Part shown: positions 19,396-28,245 of the stretch, piece after piece | Layout of the letters: each line of letters starts with the position of its first letter | How positions within the stretch are numbered: position 1 is the first letter of the stretch | Origin: Natronomonas moolapensis 8.8.11 | GTDB lineage: Archaea; Halobacteriota; Halobacteria; Halobacteriales; Haloarculaceae | Length of the DNA: 64,000 nt | Assembly: GCF_000591055.1 (NCBI RefSeq) | Contig: NC_020388.1 | Coordinates: forward strand, 124,001-188,000 | Reading direction: 5' to 3' | Made by a program: the position numbers and the translations under genes | Notes under the pieces: model-generated | The model's input: the letters and a program-made list of their open reading frames with translations, nothing else | The model's database searches: none | Told to the model about the DNA's origin: nothing

Positions 19396-22032
19396 ATGAC
19401 AGACGACTCCACTCAGCCACCAAACAAACCGGGCACGGACGAACAGGACACCGAGGAAGAAAGTCTCCGAGCGAAAGTGCAACGGCTCGAATCGCTGGTC
19501 GAACACCAACAGGCCATTATCGAGGAGTTACAGGCGCGCCAGGACACAGACGGCGAGGACGCGTCCGAAAGCGCGGAACAGGAGACTCCGGCGGAAGACG
19601 AACCCACCACGGACGAAGGGCTGTCGACGCCAGTCAGCCGCCGGGGTGTGCTAACGACAGGCGGAGCGCTTGGCTTGCTCGGCATCGGTGCGGGGTCGGC
19701 AAGAGCGGACCCGTCGGGCCAAATTGGAACGAGCAGCAACCCACTGAACACACTGTACACGGAGGAACTCAGCGGTGGCGTCACCGACGACACGTCACTG
19801 ACGAACATCGCCGGGTCGAACCTCTCAATCGACAACTCGGGGAATCTCAACGCCTCGGGCGGTGGTGGGGGGGGCAAGTGGGCCGATGGCAGTTCGGGCA
19901 GTAGCTGGCTCGAACCGTCCGACAGCGGCGATACCAAGATCGAAGGCATCGACACCATCAAGAACGCGGGGGGGTCATTAACGCTCCAGGCGTCCTCCGG
20001 CAGCGGCGTCACCATCAACACCGATGGCGGCACGCGCGCACTCAACCTCGGCGTCCCTACCGACGACGATGACGACAACACCGCTGGCGCGAACGTCGTG
20101 GCCGGCCACGCGGACAACATGGTCAACAACTCCGCTGCCGGCGTGGTTATTGCAGGTGGCGGTGCCGCGGGCAACGGACACTCAGTCGGTAATGACTATG
20201 CGACTGTCGGGGGCGGTCGGGGAAATAGCGCGGTGGATGCCGGTGACACCGTCGCCGGTGGCGAGAACAACACCGCGAATGCAAACGACTCTAGGGGTTT
20301 ACCGGCAACCGTTGGCGGTGGGTCGGGCAACGAGGCAATAGCCATCAACACCACAGTTGCTGGCGGGAGCGGCAACACCGCAGATGGCTCGATCGCGACG
20401 ATCGGTGGTGGGGATGGGAATAATGCCAGTGGCACCTATTCGACCATTGGAGGTGGCCAGAACAACAAATCGAATGGGGACTATGCGTGTATCCCGGGCG
20501 GCGAGGGCAACACGGCAAGTGGCTCAGGGTCATTCGCCGCGGGCCAGTGGGCGAAGGCAGAAGACGACAAATCGTTCGTCTGGAACGACGGGAGCGGTGC
20601 CACTGACGCCACCGGTGACTCATCGGACAAGTTCTCCTCCAATACGAATTTCAATTCCACGCCCGCCGGGGATAACTCATTCAGCGTGAAAGCCACCGGC
20701 GGCGTTCGCTTCGTCACCAGCGGCGACAACACGAGTCACGCCTACGTCGATACGGGCGGGAACGTGGTGGCGAGCAACAACCTCGACGCCCAGGGCGGCA
20801 CCGTCGAAAACACGACGGGCGGGCTGACGCTCAAGCAAAACGGGACGCAGGCACTGAAACTCCTCGATGGAAGTTCCAGTATATCGCCCAGTTCCGACGG
20901 CGCTACTCCACCGAATGTCATCGGTGGGCATCCCAGCAATAATACTGGGGGCAACGAGGTCAAAGGTGTAACAATCGCCGGTGGTGGTGGCGACTATGAT
21001 AATAGCTGGGACAACACGGCGAGTGACTGGTGGGCGACCGTCGGTGGCGGCCTCAAAAACACGGCCAGCAATACCCAAGCGACCGTCGGTGGTGGTCAGG
21101 ATAACACGGCCAGCGGGAGCAGAGCGACCGTCGCCGGAGGGTATTATAATACAGCTAGCAGTTCCCAAGCGACTGTCGCCGGCGGCAGCAAAAACACGGC
21201 CAAGGGTGGCAATCAACCGACCGTCGCAGGCGGCTTAAGTAACACTGCAAACGGAGACCGCGTGACAGTCGGTGGGGGCAGCCAGAACGAGGCCAGCGGG
21301 GAGCATTCGACCGTCGGCGGAGGCAGAGTGTGCACGGCAAGTGGGAATTTTTCGACCGTTCCTGGCGGTCATTACGCCGACGCCACTGGAACGAAATCGT
21401 TTGCAGCAGGATCTTCTGCAACAGCCAGCAATGACGGGGCATTCGTCTGGGGCGACAGCTCAGACACTTCTGTGGAGTCGAGTGCGAACGACCAGGTCAT
21501 CTTCCAGGCCGGGGGAACCAGGGACAGCGGGACAGCAGTCGAATTTTACTCACAGAGCGACGAGGACGCAGACGCAGGTGTTTCTCTGGATGCCAATGGC
21601 GGAGGGTGGAACTCGCTGTCGTCGCGGGCGGCCAAAACTGACGTCGACCCAGTCTCGGGATCGGAAGTTCTCGAAGAAATCGAACAACTCGAGGTCAGCA
21701 CCTGGCGATACGACGGCCAGGACGAGTCAATCCTGCATATGGGACCGATGGCCGAGGACTTCCACGAGGCGTTCGGTCTCGGCTCCAGTGAAGAGACTAT
21801 CAACACTGTCGACGCCGACGGCGTCGCGCTGGCAGCCATCAAGGGTCTCTCACAGAAACTCGACGACAAAGACGAGCGCATCGAGGGTCTCGAAGCCGAA
21901 ACGGACGATCTCCGAGCCGAGAACGAACAACTGCAGGAGCGCAACGCCGACCTCGAAGACCGACTGGCGGCCGTCGAGGCGGAACTCGGCATCGACGCGA
22001 CGGCTAGCCAGCAGGGGGTCGCCGATGACTAA
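19396..22032 (+). CDS. trimeric adhesin-like surface protein 1: Tat signal, YadA-type head repeats, S74-like chaperone domain
   Basis: An 878-residue protein. Residues 1-75 are an acidic N-terminal extension with a coiled coil (22-49, SLRAKVQRLESLVEHQQ). A Tat-type signal follows (SRRGVL at 81-86, hydrophobic core to 100, likely cut after SARA). Two blocks of YadA-like head repeats (about 268-385 and 545-680) repeat ATVGGGxxNxASG about every 14-16 residues. Each block ends in an SFAAG...FVW motif. Residues about 740-822 form an intramolecular-chaperone-like domain (VSTWRYDGQDES, HMGPMAEDFHEAFGLG, INTVDADGVALAAIKGL), then a coiled coil (818-865). The S-D pair expected at the self-cleavage site reads S-S (SSRAAK). 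Such proteins form trimeric stalks; attachment or cell-contact is inferred. Gly/Asn content differs from neighbouring core genes. Confidence 0.8.
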   Translation: MTDDSTQPPNKPGTDEQDTEEESLRAKVQRLESLVEHQQAIIEELQARQDTDGEDASESAEQETPAEDEPTTDEGLSTPVSRRGVLTTGGALGLLGIGAGSARADPSGQIGTSSNPLNTLYTEELSGGVTDDTSLTNIAGSNLSIDNSGNLNASGGGGGGKWADGSSGSSWLEPSDSGDTKIEGIDTIKNAGGSLTLQASSGSGVTINTDGGTRALNLGVPTDDDDDNTAGANVVAGHADNMVNNSAAGVVIAGGGAAGNGHSVGNDYATVGGGRGNSAVDAGDTVAGGENNTANANDSRGLPATVGGGSGNEAIAINTTVAGGSGNTADGSIATIGGGDGNNASGTYSTIGGGQNNKSNGDYACIPGGEGNTASGSGSFAAGQWAKAEDDKSFVWNDGSGATDATGDSSDKFSSNTNFNSTPAGDNSFSVKATGGVRFVTSGDNTSHAYVDTGGNVVASNNLDAQGGTVENTTGGLTLKQNGTQALKLLDGSSSISPSSDGATPPNVIGGHPSNNTGGNEVKGVTIAGGGGDYDNSWDNTASDWWATVGGGLKNTASNTQATVGGGQDNTASGSRATVAGGYYNTASSSQATVAGGSKNTAKGGNQPTVAGGLSNTANGDRVTVGGGSQNEASGEHSTVGGGRVCTASGNFSTVPGGHYADATGTKSFAAGSSATASNDGAFVWGDSSDTSVESSANDQVIFQAGGTRDSGTAVEFYSQSDEDADAGVSLDANGGGWNSLSSRAAKTDVDPVSGSEVLEEIEQLEVSTWRYDGQDESILHMGPMAEDFHEAFGLGSSEETINTVDADGVALAAIKGLSQKLDDKDERIEGLEAETDDLRAENEQLQERNADLEDRLAAVEAELGIDATASQQGVADD

Positions 22033-22177
22033 CGACACTGACCCCATCACGCTCACCGTCGAGATCGACCCGGCGGAGTTCGACGAACCGCGCCAGATGA
22101 TGTTCGAGCGACTGGTCGGGGAGTGCAGACAGGTCCGACCGAGAGTTGAAATAGCGAGGCGACCAACCAAGGCATAG
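22025..22177 (+). pseudogene. truncated copy N1 of the 90-aa adhesin-operon protein
   Basis: The ATG overlaps the adhesin 1 stop by 8 nt, exactly as in the intact copy at 27973. The first 31 residues (MTNDTDPITLTVEIDPAEFD...FERLVG) match the intact 90-aa protein. At about 22118 the match ends abruptly. The sequence then becomes leader A of the HicBA module, so the frame runs on only to GECRQVRPRVEIARRPTKA. Confidence 0.8.
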
Positions 22178-22203
22178 GAATGGCGAAGACCGACGATACT
22201 TCG
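22111..22203 (+). promoter_or_regulatory. leader A, copy 1: promoter and antitoxin start shared with the RelE module
   Basis: This segment is closely matched at 24901-24992. Shared parts are gtcggggagtgca, acaggtcc, the TATA-like tt(g/c)aaata, and a coding start that gives MAKTDDT in both antitoxins. The TATA-like element (about 22147-22153) is about 30 nt from the ATG, so the transcript should be nearly leaderless. Confidence 0.65.
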
Positions 22204-22449
22204 GCGGAAAGCCAGACGATTGAACTCGTCGAGAACCCCCGTGGGAGCTGGACAGCCAGAGACGAGGCGACCGGCGTCGCGAGCCAGGGGGAGACGCGCG
22301 AGGAAGCGCTGGAAAATCTCGACGAAGCCGTCGCACTCTACCGTGGCGAAATCGGCCACGAACCCACCGACGAGGAACTCCGTGAACTGGGGGTTGACCC
22401 CGAGGTTGCACGCTCACAGGACGGCGAACTGCCGGACGTCCTCGAATAG
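22180..22449 (+). CDS. hicB: HicB family antitoxin
   Basis: An 89-residue protein with the HicB partial-RNase-H-like core: IELVENPRGSWTARDEATGVASQGETREEALENLDEAVA in two overlapping stretches of strand and helix, then an acidic tail with a DELRELG-like helix. It should neutralise the adjacent HicA and repress the operon. The stop is immediately followed by the HicA ATG (TAGATG). The first seven residues, MAKTDDT, are also the start of the unrelated antitoxin at 24969, which indicates a shared leader. This is one of two HicBA modules in the array. Confidence 0.85.
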   Translation: MAKTDDTSAESQTIELVENPRGSWTARDEATGVASQGETREEALENLDEAVALYRGEIGHEPTDEELRELGVDPEVARSQDGELPDVLE

Positions 22450-22704
22450 ATGGGCACGCGAGACTTTTCCGGCGAGGATGTATATAAAGTGCTGGTCAAC
22501 GCAGGGAACTTCGAGCACGTGAGGACGAGTGGGAGCCACGTTATCGTCGAGTGGACGCCACCACCCGATCACGATACCGAACCGCGACGGGTCACGGTTC
22601 CCCTGCACGACCGCATCGACCTCGGCACGTTACAGAGTATCGCCGAGCAGGCAGGCGCAAACGACTTCGATTCCTTCTGTGCGTGGGTCGACCGGCACCG
22701 CTGA
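22450..22704 (+). CDS. hicA: HicA family mRNA interferase toxin
   Basis: An 84-residue dsRBD-fold toxin. It starts RDFSGEDVYKVLVNAGNFE after the initial MGT and has the catalytic-His motif SGSH (H30). The later VPLHDRIDLGTLQSIAEQAG segment is characteristic of archaeal HicA, which cleaves mRNA in a translation-independent manner. It is directly adjacent to hicB without spacer. Its closest relative in the window is the inverted HicA at 23043, sharing the DRI(D)xGTLxSIAEQ(S/A)GA...FCAW(V/I)DRHR end. Confidence 0.88.
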   Translation: MGTRDFSGEDVYKVLVNAGNFEHVRTSGSHVIVEWTPPPDHDTEPRRVTVPLHDRIDLGTLQSIAEQAGANDFDSFCAWVDRHR

Positions 22705-22707
22705 CAG

Positions 22708-22783
22708 TAATCAGATTTTGGCCGGAGCAGAATCCGTCGACGCAGAGACGCTGACAGACCTGTCGGGAGGGTTGGATGGCTGA
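22708..22783 (+). pseudogene. possible C-terminal remnant C1 of the 90-aa protein
   Basis: Immediately after hicA the frame reads NQILAGAESVDAETLTDLSG and then GLDG and a stop. It aligns loosely with the end of remnant C2 (DQIDVTDQQGVNPDALTD) and with the intact C-terminus ending GGIDD. As in the intact operon, a new ATG (ATGGCTGA) overlaps the stop. The similarity is short and weak. Confidence 0.35.
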
Positions 22784-22844
22784 ACGACCCGTCTGGGGCA
22801 GTTGCCGTGCGCTTCGAAGAGAGTCGTAGCGGATACAGCACGGA

Positions 22845-22865
22845 AACCCACTCTAGCCGTGGGTT
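22845..22865. repeat. perfect 7-bp stem-loop, IS200/IS605-end-like
   Basis: aacccac and gtgggtt enclose a 7-nt loop (tctagcc). Hairpins with a cccac...gtggg stem and a ctctagcc-type loop are found at ends of haloarchaeal IS200/IS605-type elements. No transposase gene is present, so this could be a leftover end or an unrelated hairpin. It sits immediately before gene remnant C2. Confidence 0.4.
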
Positions 22866-22867
22866 AG

Positions 22868-23023
22868 CTTATCGGCACGAACCTCAGTCAGGACCGCACC
22901 GCACAGGGCAGACACATCAGCAAAGCGCTGTGGGACAACCATGACCAGATTGACGTGACCGACCAGCAGGGCGTCAACCCGGACGCTCTGACCGACGAGG
23001 AGGAGAGCGATGACGGTCGGTAG
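22868..23023 (+). pseudogene. C-terminal remnant C2 of the 90-aa protein
   Basis: The frame reads LIGTNLSQDRTAQG, then HISKALWDNHDQIDV, ending DEEESDDGR and stop. The intact protein at 27973 has LVGANLSQNLTAQG and INAMWDNRDQIQV at the same place. Neither a start codon nor the N-terminal half is attached; the N-terminal piece N1 lies 750 bp upstream, on the far side of hicBA. Confidence 0.75.
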
Positions 23024-23042
23024 CGCGACAGATGCTGGCCTG

Positions 23043-23291
23043 TCAGCGATGCCGGTCGATCCACGCACAGAACGCGTCGAAGTCACGCGCACCCGACTGC
23101 TCGGCAATCGACCGCAGTGTTCCGGTGTCGATGCGGTCGTGCATCGGCACGCTCACCACCCGGATATCCTCGTCGTTGGTCGGATGCTCGTACCGGAGTT
23201 TGACGTGACTACCCGTCCGGTCGACGATCAAAAACCGGTTTTTTGTGAGGGCTTTGACGACCTCACGGCCGGAGAAGTCTCTGGACGGCAT
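23043..23291 (-). CDS. hicA: HicA family toxin (second module, inverted)
   Basis: An 82-residue HicA protein beginning MPSRDFSGREVVKAL, with the RTGSH motif (His29) and the VPMHDRIDTGTLRSIAEQSG segment. It lies 8 nt downstream of its hicB on the minus strand. It faces the remains of the 90-aa gene tail end-to-end. It is related to, but clearly diverged from, the HicA at 22450, so the two modules are not a recent duplication. Confidence 0.87.
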   Translation of the reverse strand: MPSRDFSGREVVKALTKNRFLIVDRTGSHVKLRYEHPTNDEDIRVVSVPMHDRIDTGTLRSIAEQSGARDFDAFCAWIDRHR

Positions 23292-23299
23292 CGGCGCTG

Positions 23300-23599
23300 T
23301 TATCGCATGAACTCCGGCAGTTCGTCTGTGTCGTCCCGGGCCTGCGCTATTTCGTCGGGGTCGATTCCCAACTCCCGAAGTACCTCGCGTTCTGCTTCTG
23401 GAGAGTCGATTGAATCGCTGGTTTCACCCCGGTGGAGGGCGAGGGCTTCGTCGAGGTTTTCGAGTGCCTCGACGCGCGTCTCGCTCTGGCTAGCGACGCC
23501 CGACTCGATGTCTGTTGCCACCCACAGCTTCCCCGAGCTGACGAGCCGAATCTCCTGTCTCGGCCCGTCATCGTCGCCTTCGGCCCTCGAACTCGCCAT
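23300..23599 (-). CDS. hicB: HicB family antitoxin (second module, inverted)
   Basis: A 99-residue HicB-like protein. Its core IRLVSSGKLWVATDIESGVASQSETRVEALENLDEALALH resembles the other HicB and is followed by an acidic C-terminal tail with LRELGIDPDEI. The ATG at 23599 lies 26 nt from a minus-strand TATA box (cttttatt), so translation is predicted from a leaderless mRNA. The first residues MASSRAEGDD closely match MASSTADGDD of the unrelated MntA at 24716, because both genes start inside the same repeated leader. Confidence 0.83.
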   Translation of the reverse strand: MASSRAEGDDDGPRQEIRLVSSGKLWVATDIESGVASQSETRVEALENLDEALALHRGETSDSIDSPEAEREVLRELGIDPDEIAQARDDTDELPEFMR

Positions 23600-23765
23600 A
23601 CACAGGTGTAGGCCGGAATCGAATAAAAGGGTTCGCACGGGGAGGCCCTCAGTATCGACGCGAGCGGGACCAGTCCCGTGTGAGGGTGATCGCTAATGAG
23701 TGACGACGCCCCTGCGTCTATCACCCTGCCCGTCGAAATCGATCCGGCGGAGTCCGACCAGTTAC
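23587..23765. repeat. leader B, copy 1: direct repeat with TA promoter and start of the broken 90-aa gene
   Basis: This segment is repeated at 24704-24880. A run of about 45 bp (tcgaactcgccatacacagg...) is identical except at one position. The repeat carries the minus-strand TATA box (aataaaag at 23622-23629), the first codons of the antitoxin on one side, and the start of the broken 90-aa gene (N2) on the other. The two copies flank the HepT-MntA module. Confidence 0.8.
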
Positions 23766-23810
23766 GAGTCAATAGACGGGCGACTGGTCGAGAAACAGGC
23801 GCGCGGTGCA
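23696..23810 (+). pseudogene. N-terminal remnant N2 of the 90-aa protein, frameshifted
   Basis: It starts MSDDAPASITLPVEIDPAESD, matching MTDDTDPITLTVEIDPAEFD of the intact copy. After that the frame is lost; the expected RLVE segment reappears in another frame (gactggtcgag). The rest of the gene is missing, replaced by the end of the inverted HepT gene. Confidence 0.75.
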
Positions 23811-23832
23811 ACTGGTCGATACGGTCTCATCC

Positions 23833-24279
23833 TCACTCCAGTATCCCGGTGTCATCGAGATATTCGCGTACAGCAAAGAGAAAGTCTCGATACCGGTCGA
23901 GGTCCTGTAACGCGTCGTAGACATCGTCGTCCTTGATGGCGTTCCCGTAGGTATGTGCGAGAACGTTCCGGAAGCGCGCTACTTGGGTCATCCGCTCCGT
24001 GGTCGCGTCATCGAGTACGTCCACGCGTCCCAGTGCGACCATCACTGCCGGGTTGCTATCTGGTTGGACCCCTCGTTCGTGGCCGACGAGTGTCCGTGCG
24101 ATGTCGAGGGCCGCCTCGGTCAACTTGACGAACCGGCGCTCGACGATATCGCGCGCCGCCCGGTCGGTCATGTACTCTTAACGGGACAGCGATTGTTTGC
24201 CAGCAAGCACCGCCAGACTCGTTTCCATCGTCTTGACAGCGCTGACGATGCGTTCGATATCGTCGTCGGAGAGAGTCAT
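23833..24279 (-). pseudogene. hepT: HepT-type HEPN toxin split by an in-frame stop codon
   Basis: The gene reads from an ATG at 24279, which overlaps the mntA stop as ATGA. A first helix MTLSDDDIERIVSAVKTMET runs to KQSLSR, then TAA (24180-24178), then in the same frame EY and MTDRAARDIVERRF to the end at 23833. HepT proteins normally have this N-terminal helix joined to the SxEEYxxDxxxxDIVERRF segment, so the TAA lies inside the expected protein. The catalytic RNxxxH motif (R68-N69-V-L-A-H73 counted from the inner ATG at 24171) is intact. The inner ATG could give a 112-residue protein lacking helix 1. Confidence 0.8.
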
Positions 24280-24716
24280 GCGAGATGGTCGTCGATAGAC
24301 GCGAGGGCGTCGTCGAACCGTTCTGCCGGCGACCGGCGGTCTTCGGTCGCGTCGTCCAGCAGTGTTTCGTGGAGATGACTGGCCGCTTCGTCGGTGCCGA
24401 CGACTAGCTTCCCGTCGCGAAATATCGCACGGAGAAGCGCCGGCGGTGCCGAACGAAGGTCGACCACGTCGACATCGTCGGTTCCGAGCGCGAGTGCCAG
24501 ATCGGCACCCACCCCGAGGCGTGCATCCAGGTGTCCGGACTCGCCCGGTTGACAGTTCTCGAACGCAATCGCAACGTCGATATCACTATATTTGTGACTC
24601 TCGCCGCGCGCGCGGGAACCGAACACGATTCCGACCGAAACAGGATGGGAAGCAAGCACTGACTCGACGGTCTCGAGCCAGTCGATGTCGTCTCCGTCCG
24701 CGGTCGAACTCGCCAT
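24276..24716 (-). CDS. mntA: MntA family nucleotidyltransferase antitoxin
   Basis: A 146-residue minimal nucleotidyltransferase with the motif GSRARGESHKYSDIDVAI (GSxARG and DxD), typical of MntA antitoxins. These block HepT by adenylylating its active-site Tyr region. The N-terminus MASSTADGDD comes from the shared leader B. The stop overlaps the start of hepT by 4 nt. The TATA box is at 24739-24746 on the minus strand, 26 nt from the ATG. Confidence 0.86.
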   Translation of the reverse strand: MASSTADGDDIDWLETVESVLASHPVSVGIVFGSRARGESHKYSDIDVAIAFENCQPGESGHLDARLGVGADLALALGTDDVDVVDLRSAPPALLRAIFRDGKLVVGTDEAASHLHETLLDDATEDRRSPAERFDDALASIDDHLA

Positions 24717-24880
24717 ACACAGGTGTAGGCCGGAATCGAATAAAAGAGTTCGGAGGGGATCCCCTCGGTATCGACGCGAGCGGGACCAGTCCCGTGTGGG
24801 AGTGATCGCCGACGACCGACGACGCCCCTGAGCCTATCACGCTCACCGCCGAAATCGACCCGGCGGCGTTCGACGAGCGA
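24704..24880. repeat. leader B, copy 2
   Basis: Direct repeat of 23587-23765. It contains the minus-strand promoter and first codons of mntA on the left and the start-codon-less N3 remnant on the right. With leader A copy 2 (24901-24992) it forms a hub between divergent mntA and the RelE-type module. Confidence 0.8.
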
Positions 24881-24918
24881 CGGCAGTTGGTGTTCAAGCA
24901 ACTCGTCGGGGAGTGCAA
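24812..24918 (+). pseudogene. N-terminal remnant N3 of the 90-aa protein, start codon lost
   Basis: The in-frame sequence TTDDAPEPITLTAEIDPAAF then DERRQLVFKQLVGE matches the intact 90-aa protein. The position of the ATG is occupied by ACG (24812-24814). The match stops after the LVG codons, as in N1, and continues into leader A. Confidence 0.75.
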
Positions 24919-24992
24919 ACAGGTCCAACCGAGGGTTCAAATACGAACGAGCCCAACCATTACACAGAATGGCGAAGACGGACGACACAGCG
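24901..24992 (+). promoter_or_regulatory. leader A, copy 2: promoter and antitoxin start of the RelE module
   Basis: It matches 22111-22203 in front of hicBA. The TATA-like ttcaaata (24936-24943) lies about 29 nt from the ATG at 24969. The first seven codons encode MAKTDDT in both modules, although the following antitoxins are unrelated. Confidence 0.65.
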
Positions 24993-25118
24993 GACGACCC
25001 AGATGAAGACGAGATGCTCCCCGACGAGGCAGAGGCGATTGCACAGCGCCTCGACAGCCTCGACGACGAACAGCGGCGTTCGCTGTCAGACGTGGCCGAC
25101 GCCCTAGACGACGAGTAA
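24969..25118 (+). CDS. small antitoxin of the RelE/ParE module, 49 aa
   Basis: The sequence is MAKTDDTADDPDEDEMLPDE followed by AEAIAQRLDSLDDEQRRSLSDVADALDDE. It is a very acidic, helical protein too short for most annotation cut-offs. Its stop shares one base with the toxin start (TAATG), the usual coupling of antitoxin and toxin. It has no recognisable DNA-binding domain, so repression of its own promoter is uncertain. The antitoxin role is inferred from size and position. Confidence 0.65.
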   Translation: MAKTDDTADDPDEDEMLPDEAEAIAQRLDSLDDEQRRSLSDVADALDDE

Positions 25119-25450
25119 TGCCGCGTGCGCCGTCGTCGCTCGAATTTCTTCCGGAAGCACAGGCAGACCTCGAACGCATCGACGACCACAATCCCGACCA
25201 CGCCGAGCGGATTCTGGGGAAGATTGCCGACTGGGACGAGAAGATCGGCTGGGGTCGAGTCCCACAGGAACACCTGACGTTCCTCACCGACTCGCCCACG
25301 GGACACAACTTCTACCGCGAGCGCGTCGGCAACAGTGGCTATCGAGTCATCTACGAAATCTCCGACGACGTGATGACGGTCGTCGCCGTGCTTCCGAAAA
25401 GCGACAACACCTACGACCTCTCGGCACTCGCGCGGCGAGCGTCGGAGTAG
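25118..25450 (+). CDS. RelE/ParE family toxin
   Basis: A 110-residue protein with the RelE/ParE fold pattern: an N-terminal strand (SLEFLPEAQADLERI), two helices (DHAERILGKIADWDEKI), then the basic strand region YRERVGNSGYRVIYEISDDV and VVAVLPKSDNTYDLS. The central Arg/Tyr residues are those expected for a ribosome-dependent RNase or gyrase poison; which of the two cannot be told. It is coupled to the 49-aa antitoxin by a one-base overlap. Confidence 0.82.
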   Translation: MPRAPSSLEFLPEAQADLERIDDHNPDHAERILGKIADWDEKIGWGRVPQEHLTFLTDSPTGHNFYRERVGNSGYRVIYEISDDVMTVVAVLPKSDNTYDLSALARRASE

Positions 25451-25465
25451 AATCCCCAGGGGTTC

Positions 25466-25547
25466 ATACGAATTGCTGTAGTCCCTTACCAGAATCGCCG
25501 GCCACCGGGTCGGCCGATTACTGGTACACAGCTACAGCAATCCGTAT
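25466..25547. mobile_element. 82-bp MITE-like palindrome
   Basis: The termini atacgaattgctgtag and ctacagcaatccgtat are inverted copies with one mismatch. Inside, ttaccag...ggcc and ggtcggc...ctggta continue the symmetry, so almost the whole 82 bp folds on itself. It has no coding capacity. Its right end directly abuts gene remnant C3. The pattern fits a miniature inverted-repeat element; the parent IS is not in the window and no clear target duplication is seen. Confidence 0.65.
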
Positions 25548-25548
25548 C

Positions 25549-25640
25549 AGTCAGGACCGCACCGCACAGGGGCTGCAGTTGGTCACCGCACTGTGGGACA
25601 ACCACGACCAGATTACCGTCGAGCAAGGGAACAGACAACT
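25549..25640 (+). pseudogene. C-terminal remnant C3 of the 90-aa protein
   Basis: The frame reads SQDRTAQGLQLVTALWDNHD then QITVEQGNRQ, matching NLSQNLTAQG...AMWDNRDQIQV of the intact gene. The left boundary is the MITE end. The N-terminal partner is N3, on the other side of the RelE module. Confidence 0.7.
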
Positions 25641-25677
25641 GCCAGTCTCAGCGACGAGTGTTCATGTGTGCATATTG

Positions 25678-25685
25678 CTATTAAG
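25678..25685 (+). promoter_or_regulatory. TATA box of adhesin gene 2
   Basis: The element ctattaag is at the same place relative to the gene as atatttaa before adhesin 1. The flanking segment from gagtgttc (25656) through ttgaacatcactcgcgctcg is shared. An in-frame TTG at 25704 lies near the predicted start site. Confidence 0.45.
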
Positions 25686-25790
25686 TAGTAGCATCCTCGT
25701 TGTTTGAACATCACTCGCGCTCGGGACGGCTGTCCCCCGTGGTGCATCACCCGCCACGAACGGTCGACCGACGCGAGATGGACGGTACCA

Positions 25791-27980
25791 ATGACAGACG
25801 ACACCACTCGGCAACCAAACGAACAGGGCACGGACGAACAGGACACCGAGGACGAGAGTCTCCGAGCGAAAGTGCAACGGCTCGAATCCTTGGTCGAACA
25901 CCAACAGCAGACTATCGAGGAGCTAGAGGCGCACCAAGAGACAGACAGCGCGGACGCGTCCGAAAGCGTGGACCAGGAGACTCCGGCGGAAGACGAGACC
26001 ACAACGGACGAAGGACTGTCGACGCCAGTCGGCCGCCGGGGCGTGCTGACGGCGACCGGAGCGCTTGGCCTGCTCGGACTGGGTGCGGGCTCGGCGAGTG
26101 CGGACGCGTCGGGGAAGATTGGGACGAGCAGCGACCCGCTGAACACACTCTACACAGATGAACTCAACGGCGGCGTCACCGGCGACACGTCACTGACGAA
26201 CATCGCCGGGTCGGGACTGACCATCGATGGCTCCGGGAATCTCAACGCCTCGGGCGGTGGAGGCGGCGGCAAGTGGGCCGATGGCACTTCGGGCGGTAGC
26301 TGGCTCGAACCGTCCGAGAGCAGCGATACCAAGATCGAAGGCATCGACACCATCCAGGCGTTCTCGGGCAGCGGCGTCACCATCAACACAAACGGGGGCG
26401 ATCGCGCGCTGGAACTGGGTGTGCCGTCGAGTGACGGCACCAACACGGCAGGCGGGAATGTCGTCGCTGGTCACCCAAACAATGCGGTGAACAATGGGGC
26501 CGTCGGCTCGGTCATCGGCGGTGGTGGCAGCGACGGTAGCTCCGGCAGTATCACCTTCGAGAACACTGTCGAGGACAACTACAGCGTCGTCGTCGGCGGG
26601 CTAGCCAATCAGGCCGGCAGTACCGGAAGCGACGAGACGAACGCGATTTATGCGACCGTCGGCGGTGGTGCCGGAAACAGTGCTAGCGGTAACTCTTCGA
26701 CCGTCGGCGGAGGTCAAAGTAACAATGCCAGCGCCACGCAATCGACCGTCGGCGGCGGGAGCAGAAACGATGCCACCAAAATCAATGCGACCATCGGCGG
26801 TGGGTTCCAGAACGAAGCCAGCGGTAGCTCTTCGACCGTCAGCGGCGGGAACAGTAACACTGCCGGGGGAAATGATGCGACCGTTCCTGGTGGCAACCAA
26901 AACGATGCAGTCGGCGACCATTCGTTTGCTGCGGGTCGGTATGCCAGGGCCGAAGACGCAAACGCCTTCACATGGAACGACGGCAGTGGAGCCACCGAGT
27001 CGGAGGGAAGTTCGAGTCTGAGCGACAAGTTCTCTTCCTCGACAACGAGCGGCATTTCGAGTGGCCCCTCGGGCGCAGAGACCTTCAGCGTGAAAGCCAA
27101 AGGCGGTGTGCGCTTCGTCACCAGCGGCGACAACACGAGTCACGCCTATGTTGACGATAGTGGGAATCTTACAGCCAGTGGGAACTTCGACGCCCAGGGC
27201 GGCACCGTCCAGAACACAACGGGCGGGCTGACGGTCACAACCAACGATAAAGGCGACCTCACACTCGACCCGGGGGAGAGCAACAACGTCGACATCGAGA
27301 ACGGCCATCTCGACCTCAAAGGCAACAACATCGAATGTACGTCCGAACCGGGGACCGATTTCAAAGCCCAGGTCGATGCTGACGGAGATGGGGAAGATGG
27401 TCAAGTCTCCTTTATCTTCCCCGACAAAGGCAGCTCAGAGGAGATCAAGTGGGCTCGGGACGCTCTAAACGATGACGCGTTCCGCGTCAGGGACGCGAAT
27501 AATGATACACCTCTTTTCACTGTCAACGACGGCGGCACGGTCGATATCCACAACGGCGATCTCGATATGAAAGAGTCGGGGAGCGTCACCAACACCTCCG
27601 ACCGTCGTCTCAAAACCGCCATCGAGCCAATTCAGGACGCCGTCGCAAAACTGTGCGAACTCGAAGCGGCGACCTACTCTTGGGAGGATGAGGACACGCC
27701 GGACGACCGCGAAGCGGGTGTCATCGCCCAGTCGGTCCAGCGCGTCCTCCCCGAAGCAGTCTCGGAGGACGAGGACGGCTACCTGAACCTCGCCTACAGA
27801 CAGTTGACTCCGCTGCTCATCGAGGCGACACAAGAACAGCAGGGCCATATCGAGAACCTCGAAGCCGAGAACGAACAGCTACGGGAGCGCAACGCCGACC
27901 TCGAAGACCGACTAGCGGCCGTCGAGGCGGAACTCGGCATCGACGCGACGGCCAGCCAGCAGGGAGTCGCCGATGACTGA
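25791..27980 (+). CDS. trimeric adhesin-like surface protein 2 with S74-type self-cleaving chaperone domain
   Basis: A 729-residue paralogue of the protein at 19396. The N-terminal 170 residues are nearly the same: acidic coiled-coil extension, Tat-type GRRGVLTATGALGLLG at 81-96, and likely cleavage after SASA. There is one block of YadA-like head repeats (about 283-400, SSTVGGGQSNNASATQ type). Residues 603-680 form a canonical intramolecular chaperone domain: SDRRLKTAIEPI with the Ser-Asp pair, TYSWEDED, GVIAQSVQRVLPEAV and LTPLLIEATQEQ. The final coiled coil (680-716) and tail ATASQQGVADD are identical in type to copy 1. It begins a four-gene operon with 8-nt overlaps. Confidence 0.83.
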   Translation: MTDDTTRQPNEQGTDEQDTEDESLRAKVQRLESLVEHQQQTIEELEAHQETDSADASESVDQETPAEDETTTDEGLSTPVGRRGVLTATGALGLLGLGAGSASADASGKIGTSSDPLNTLYTDELNGGVTGDTSLTNIAGSGLTIDGSGNLNASGGGGGGKWADGTSGGSWLEPSESSDTKIEGIDTIQAFSGSGVTINTNGGDRALELGVPSSDGTNTAGGNVVAGHPNNAVNNGAVGSVIGGGGSDGSSGSITFENTVEDNYSVVVGGLANQAGSTGSDETNAIYATVGGGAGNSASGNSSTVGGGQSNNASATQSTVGGGSRNDATKINATIGGGFQNEASGSSSTVSGGNSNTAGGNDATVPGGNQNDAVGDHSFAAGRYARAEDANAFTWNDGSGATESEGSSSLSDKFSSSTTSGISSGPSGAETFSVKAKGGVRFVTSGDNTSHAYVDDSGNLTASGNFDAQGGTVQNTTGGLTVTTNDKGDLTLDPGESNNVDIENGHLDLKGNNIECTSEPGTDFKAQVDADGDGEDGQVSFIFPDKGSSEEIKWARDALNDDAFRVRDANNDTPLFTVNDGGTVDIHNGDLDMKESGSVTNTSDRRLKTAIEPIQDAVAKLCELEAATYSWEDEDTPDDREAGVIAQSVQRVLPEAVSEDEDGYLNLAYRQLTPLLIEATQEQQGHIENLEAENEQLRERNADLEDRLAAVEAELGIDATASQQGVADD

Positions 27981-28245
27981 CGACACTGACCCCATCACGC
28001 TCACCGTCGAAATCGACCCGGCGGAGTTCGACGAACCGCGCGAGATGATGTACGAACGACTGGTCGAGGCGTTCGGCCACGAAACCGTCGCGGAACTCGT
28101 CGGCGCGAACCTGAGTCAGAACCTCACCGCACAGGGGATGGGCATCATCAACGCAATGTGGGACAATCGCGACCAGATTCAGGTCGACCCCGAGGGCGTC
28201 GACCCACCAGAGGTTCCAGACCAGCCCGGAGGTATCGATGACTGA
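27973..28245 (+). CDS. 90-aa adhesin-operon protein, intact copy
   Basis: A 90-residue acidic protein: MTDDTDPITLTVEIDPAEFD, then a helical YERLVEAFGHETVAELVGAN segment, a conserved LSQNLTAQGMG and MWDNRDQIQV motif, and a Pro/Gly-rich tail. The ATG overlaps the adhesin stop by 8 nt (ATGACTGA), and its own end overlaps the next gene by 8 nt. I recognise no known family. Its strict linkage to the adhesin gene, seen at both adhesin loci, suggests a chaperone or partner role. Several broken copies (N1-N3, C1-C3) lie between 22.0 and 25.6 kb. Confidence 0.75.
   Translation: MTDDTDPITLTVEIDPAEFDEPREMMYERLVEAFGHETVAELVGANLSQNLTAQGMGIINAMWDNRDQIQVDPEGVDPPEVPDQPGGIDD

Follow-up and report, generated by a model that had tools for sequence, protein, structure and literature searches.

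Evidence for chimeric antitoxin 5′ ends in a scrambled toxin–antitoxin array of Natronomonas moolapensis

Introduction

Toxin–antitoxin (TA) pairs are known to be mobile as whole units and to exchange partners. We describe here an array of four TA modules in a 64,000-nt stretch of the Natronomonas moolapensis 8.8.11 genome (positions 124,001–188,000 of a single contig of 2,912,573 bp; hereafter the window, whose own numbering is used), in which two antitoxins appear to have taken their promoter and first codons from unrelated TA families. The four modules themselves belong to known families, and the unusual part is their chimeric 5′ ends. No description of the locus, or of antitoxin 5′-end swaps, was found in the open-licence literature.

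In HicBA, a type II system, the HicB antitoxin often has a helix-turn-helix (HTH) or ribbon-helix-helix (RHH) domain (PMC2701414). The HicBA modules of the array have the same antitoxin–toxin order, the same sizes and the same Pfam families (HicA, PF07927; a DUF7387 HicB), but their HicBs lack a recognisable HTH or RHH domain, and one copy carries the 5′ end of another family. MntA–HepT is a type VII system with the motifs GSX10DXD in MntA and RX4HXY in HepT (PMC7641770). The array module shares both motifs, the NCBIfam equivalogs and the position of the antitoxin gene in front; however, its MntA begins with ten HicB codons and its HepT is interrupted at codon 34. RelE/ParE-superfamily systems with a short ParD-like antitoxin, also present on haloarchaeal plasmids, resemble the fourth module in having a toxin above the PF05016 cut-off and an antitoxin directly upstream, but the antitoxin in the array belongs to no known family. 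A constant antitoxin part with varied partners is also seen with the hyperpromiscuous Panacea domain of combinatorial TA networks (PMC8832971). Panacea, however, is a folded domain that neutralises many toxins, whereas the common part in the array is a promoter and 7–13 probably disordered codons, and whole antitoxin–toxin pairs change.

Results

An earlier sequence-only reading of this DNA had listed four TA modules, and Pfam and NCBIfam searches bear these out at its coordinates as HicBA (+), HicBA (−), MntA–HepT (−) and ParD-like/RelE (+). Both HicBA modules match PF07927 and PF24113 above cut-offs, with HicA adjoining a HicB-type antitoxin; DUF7387 (PF24113) was taken as the HicB of these pairs from its gene neighbourhood. 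On the plus strand, the HicB-type antitoxin (22180–22449; PF24113, E = 4e-26) precedes HicA (22450–22704; PF07927). On the minus strand, the HicB-type antitoxin, which starts MASSRAEGDD, lies at 23300–23599 (PF24113) and HicA at 23043–23291 (PF07927, E = 4e-14; 94% amino acid identity to Natronomonas sp. LN261). The MntA antitoxin (24276–24716, −; NF047752 above cut-off) and the HepT toxin gene (23833–24279, −) both match NCBIfam equivalogs. The RelE/ParE-superfamily toxin (25118–25450, +; PF05016, 36.5 bits against a cut-off of 23; 84% amino acid identity in LN261) follows a 49-aa ParD-like antitoxin (24969–25118, +), which has no Pfam, NCBIfam or PHROG match and whose homologues lie upstream of RelE in other haloarchaea, where the pair is conserved. 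Only three of the modules are plainly intact, because HepT has an in-frame stop at codon 34. Its remaining reading frame (23833–24171) retains RX4HXY as RNVLAHTY, and the GSX10DXD motif of MntA is intact (GSRARGESHKYSDID). Pfam and NCBIfam searches found no DNA-binding domain in any of the four antitoxins.

The two plus-strand antitoxins share one 5′ region, leader A, and the two minus-strand antitoxins share another, leader B. The copies of leader A (22111–22203 and 24901–24992, both +) comprise a promoter with GAAATA at about −30, the start codon and the first 8 codons, and align with 76 identities, 14 mismatches and 5 gaps (80%); the score is 88, whereas none of 200 shuffles exceeded −18. 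The similarity ends at about codon 8, and the 90 nt past this junction score −33 (shuffle maximum −19). The copies of leader B (23571–23659 and 24688–24776, both −) consist of a leaderless promoter, with TTTTAT 29 nt before the ATG, and 10 codons; they are 86% identical, and the repeat block of the first extends to about 23766. Over the coordinates used earlier (23587–23765 and 24704–24880), the alignment has 153 identities, 24 mismatches and 2 gaps (85%), with a score of 224 compared with −72 when shuffled. Here the similarity ends at about codon 10, and the next 90 nt score −37, near the shuffle level (maximum −32). Thus each leader does stand before two unrelated antitoxins, HicB and the ParD-like protein for A, HicB and MntA for B, the two HicBs being related to each other. 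The identity at the antitoxin starts survives proper alignment, and the position within the antitoxin 5′ end at which the payloads join is fixed, as had been claimed. Both leaders have a TATA-like element about 27–30 nt before the ATG (TTTTAT at 29 nt; AAATA at about 30 nt), which is the arrangement of haloarchaeal leaderless transcripts.

To which family does leader B belong? Outside N. moolapensis, HicBA lies behind it in all five genomes that have it (LN261, Salinibaculum KK48, SHR40, Halorientalis regularis and G095), the LN261 module being orthologous to HicBA (−) with the same leader. A leader-B pattern gave 43 matches in about 85,000 GTDB genomes. Of the haloarchaeal matches, four lie at a TA gene, in each case before HicB; a match in Halorussus runs into a stop after 14 codons; and the bacterial matches, uninspected, were taken as chance by expectation. 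Starts of the form MASS..DG[DE] occur at 7 of 36 HicB loci and at none of 30 MntA loci. Furthermore, the leader of the array MntA scores 94 (KK48) and 79 against HicB leaders of other genomes, but at best 40 against an MntA leader, where the shuffled maximum is 32. The HicB of KK48 starts MASSTADGDDPEQEIRLV, while the N. moolapensis MntA starts MASSTADGDD followed by IDWLETVESV, so that the junction falls at codon 10. Judged from these comparisons, a haloarchaeal HicBA family, one branch of that system, has leader B as its native 5′ end, and the proposal that MntA acquired a HicB 5′ end (promoter, start codon and 10 codons) is well supported.

The same comparisons bear on the possibility that haloarchaeal TA promoters are simply alike, each a leaderless promoter with an acidic N-terminus, and that no recombination took place. 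The best-scoring native MntA leader (L042) does have TTTTAT and GTGTATG at positions matching leader B, and its score of 40 exceeds the shuffled maximum. However, unrelated families elsewhere score about 16–30, and within the genome the only further matching gene start is that of a second MntA–HepT at 922 kb. The array copies, moreover, are 86% identical over 90 nt and share about 100 further bp of DNA from a tail-fibre-like gene and a small open reading frame (smORF). Since identity that extends into non-promoter DNA refutes mere likeness of promoters, we consider this explanation extremely improbable.

The leader-B block occurs three times in the genome, twice in the array and once at 922,834 (E = 1e-26), where it belongs to the second MntA–HepT. 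A 1,051-bp block (23734–24784, −), running from an smORF fragment through HepT, MntA and leader B to a tail-fibre-gene end, is repeated there (L014:3881–4931) with 90.7% identity. In the window, this block lies between two leader-B-block copies, the arrangement that would be expected after one homologous crossover. The two MntA copies differ by 27 synonymous and 10 non-synonymous nucleotides; for HepT the figures are 16 and 23, so the differences are not mainly synonymous. The HepT gene at 922 kb is uninterrupted, unlike the window copy, and it appears that the MntA antitoxin is kept while the window HepT decays. A third MntA–HepT in the genome (1,645,858) differs in both its leader and its start. 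The region at 921.5–923.1 kb (L014:3552–5061) holds a paralogue of a coiled-coil gene, an smORF fragment, the chimeric MntA–HepT and 50 bp from the promoter region of the tail-fibre gene (96% to 25637–25686); we read it as another copy of the island, in scattered form.

Leader A is rarer. The genome has two copies only, both in the array (second copy, E = 5e-13), and among 394 genomes of the order convincing matches were found only in N. moolapensis and LN261. In LN261, the one genome outside N. moolapensis, ParD–RelE lies behind it, and the second array copy is 80% identical over 70 nt to the LN261 ParD leader (E = 1e-10); the plasmid matches are to RelE alone and lack leader A. The nearest relative of HicBA (+), in SHR40, has 80% (HicB) and 76% (HicA) amino acid identity, and its DNA is alignable only over 22219–22704, between HicB codon 14 and the stop codon of HicA. 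The DNA upstream of the SHR40 HicB has no match to leader A (score <19, noise), and the leader of HicB (+) resembles ParD leaders only. Thus HicBA (+) probably acquired the 5′ end of a ParD-like antitoxin, and the start that its HicB shares would comprise a ParD-derived promoter, start codon and about 8–13 codons. Leader A begins inside the N-terminal part of a broken smORF, and in both copies the fusion is at smORF codon 32 or so. LN261 lacks this fusion, and the leader-A copies therefore duplicated in the N. moolapensis lineage.

The direction of the leader A transfer could also be the reverse, with leader A native to HicB (+) and captured by ParD in a Natronomonas ancestor. Several observations weigh against our assignment. 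Outside N. moolapensis, leader A is known from one species, which makes its ultimate owner uncertain. ParD relatives in other families carry other leaders (MATDG...), and ParD may therefore itself have borrowed leader A. Since MAKSD is the start of the nearest HicB (+) relative, the MAKTDDT start, which the sequence-only reading took for a tag, may in part be native to HicB (+). On the other hand, the noise-level score upstream of the SHR40 HicB, the presence of ParD rather than HicB behind leader A in LN261, and the smORF/leader fusion of HicB (+), which is found only in N. moolapensis, make a reversed direction unlikely, and a transfer from ParD to HicB (+) is the reading we retain as probable.

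The nearest genome with the locus is that of LN261, in the same genus. Its order is tail fibre, smORF, leader A, ParD, RelE, smORF, HicBA (−) with leader B, surface gene; both smORFs are whole, and the upstream neighbours are different (PIN and PRC-barrel genes). In G090, a genome of the same family, the order is tail fibre, smORF, surface gene, with none of these TA families found. We take the LN261 arrangement as the un-scrambled state. From the two arrangements it follows that leader B–HicBA (−) and leader A–ParD–RelE are the older pairings in the genus, with HicBA (+) and MntA–HepT as newcomers.

The repeats between the modules are pieces of coding genes. The array (GC 61%, against 65–70% in the flanks) is flanked by a solute-binding-protein gene and ftsZ. 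The first tail-fibre-like gene (19396–22032, +; Peptidase_S74/chaperone of endosialidase, PF13884, E = 1e-8; Tat-like signal) overlaps at its 3′ end the first smORF copy, an N-terminal part at 22025–22120 (+; 88% amino acid identity to residues 1–32 of the intact smORF) that breaks off at about codon 32 in leader A. The C-terminal half of this copy, a direct repeat with 53% amino acid identity to residues 39–85, lies behind the HicBA (+) payload at 22877–23022 (+). By alignment, leader B is followed by a duplicated tail-fibre-gene end and then a fragment of the smORF start, at 23660–23766 in the duplicated block (+; smORF piece 23696–23766) and at 24777–24912 (+; smORF piece 24820–24912). The second of these lies in a divergent unit (24688–24993) of leader B (−), a dead smORF N-half and leader A (+). 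A second C-half, identified by repeat and protein comparison, is at 25547–25640 (+). The shared DNA thus goes beyond a leader. Given the smORF pieces, the leader A–smORF fusion and the run of leader B into a tail-fibre-gene end, the array is better described, on its sequence, as an insertion- and deletion-scarred family of duplicates than as clean cassettes.

An intact smORF of 90 aa (27973–28245, +) follows the second tail-fibre-like gene (25791–27980, +; PF13884, E = 1e-14; PHROG tail fibre matches). The smORF has no Pfam, NCBIfam or PHROG family and zero matches in phage records; it is rare (3 of 146 genomes of the family, namely N. moolapensis, LN261 and one other) and adjoins a tail-fibre-like gene in all three. 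The two tail-fibre-like proteins (19396–22032 and 25791–27980) are secreted paralogues with a Tat-like signal, Peptidase_S74 and TVGGG..N.AS repeats; they resemble phage tail-fibre families and are encoded in a haloarchaeal chromosome. At the break before the second smORF C-half is an 82-bp segment (25466–25547, unstranded) with inverted-repeat ends of 27 nt that are 78% complementary. Neither this palindromic segment nor the 176-bp segment between the HicBA (+) payload and the first smORF C-half is a repeated mobile element, each being present in the genome as a single copy. A hairpin, AACCCACTCTAGCCGTGGGTT, lies at about 22847–22873, directly before the first C-half and in single-copy DNA; it is similar to the ends of haloarchaeal IS200/IS605 elements.

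Does the array represent a genuine cassette system, in which fixed leaders serve as recombination platforms for repeated exchange of TA payloads in many genomes? This was the proposal of the sequence-only reading, and the finding that, within a single 3.4-kb locus, each of two leaders stands before two unrelated payloads agrees with it, as does the HicBA (+) payload being bounded on both sides by homologous DNA (smORF N-half and leader A; smORF C-half). Of that proposal, recombined 5′ ends stand on the comparison with relatives, but fixed leaders as an exchange platform do not. Outside N. moolapensis, neither leader was found before different TA families; each always precedes one, the very pattern that the proposal had named as speaking against itself. 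Nor do the first codons form a dedicated N-terminal tag: an acidic start of this kind is usual for a HicB and for a ParD-like antitoxin. Of 4,429 cross-family leader pairs drawn from other genomes, which are relatives of the window genes and not a random set, so that a low but non-zero frequency elsewhere is possible, the sole high score (98, HicB/ParD, L095/L111) came from a dispersed intergenic repeat well before the promoter, with neither promoter nor start codon, and was rejected as a second leader match. For MntA, both occurrences go back to one chimera that was copied as a block, and they do not count as two separate exchanges. We saw no recombinase among the genes of the array, although no search aimed at an integron integrase was made. 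We therefore judge a cassette system quite improbable.

Discussion

The array is most probably a small island that was scrambled, with chimeric TA operons arising by duplication and (micro)homologous recombination. The ancestral island would have run from the tail-fibre-like gene through the smORF and the TA modules to the surface gene. Two chimeric operons would then have arisen by duplications and deletions whose ends fell in the smORF, the tail-fibre-gene end and the antitoxin 5′ regions, HicBA (+) gaining a ParD-like promoter, start codon and about 8–13 codons, and MntA–HepT gaining a HicB promoter, start codon and 10 codons. Both swaps are, as we read the sequences, lineage-specific events in one rearranged locus. 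That the chimeric 5′ ends are a local accident, and not the work of a general cassette-exchange machine, is well supported.

The chimeras are predicted to function like any other TA pair, although the window MntA–HepT, with its broken HepT, may no longer act as a toxin. From the borrowed 5′ end would come a leaderless promoter and an acidic start that is probably disordered and harmless to the antitoxin, with the payload retaining its own toxin–antitoxin specificity. An incoming antitoxin joined in frame to a resident start would be expressed at once, and addiction would then disfavour the loss of the incoming pair. As the searches gave no DNA-binding domain for any of the four antitoxins, the need to match an operator may place no limit on the exchange of promoters, and an interchangeable leaderless promoter with its start codon would explain why the chimeras were kept. 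A broader proposal is that TA modules are re-homed by 5′-end capture and that antitoxin 5′ ends serve haloarchaea repeatedly as landing sites, the more readily where the antitoxins lack a DNA-binding domain; this seems to us doubtful though conceivable.

What is unusual here is that only the antitoxin promoter and first codons were apparently exchanged between unrelated TA families, twice in one locus, and that un-scrambled relatives are there for comparison. Replacement of the 5′ end would give an incoming TA pair a concrete way to gain regulated expression, and it predicts that haloarchaeal TA promoters would be interchangeable.

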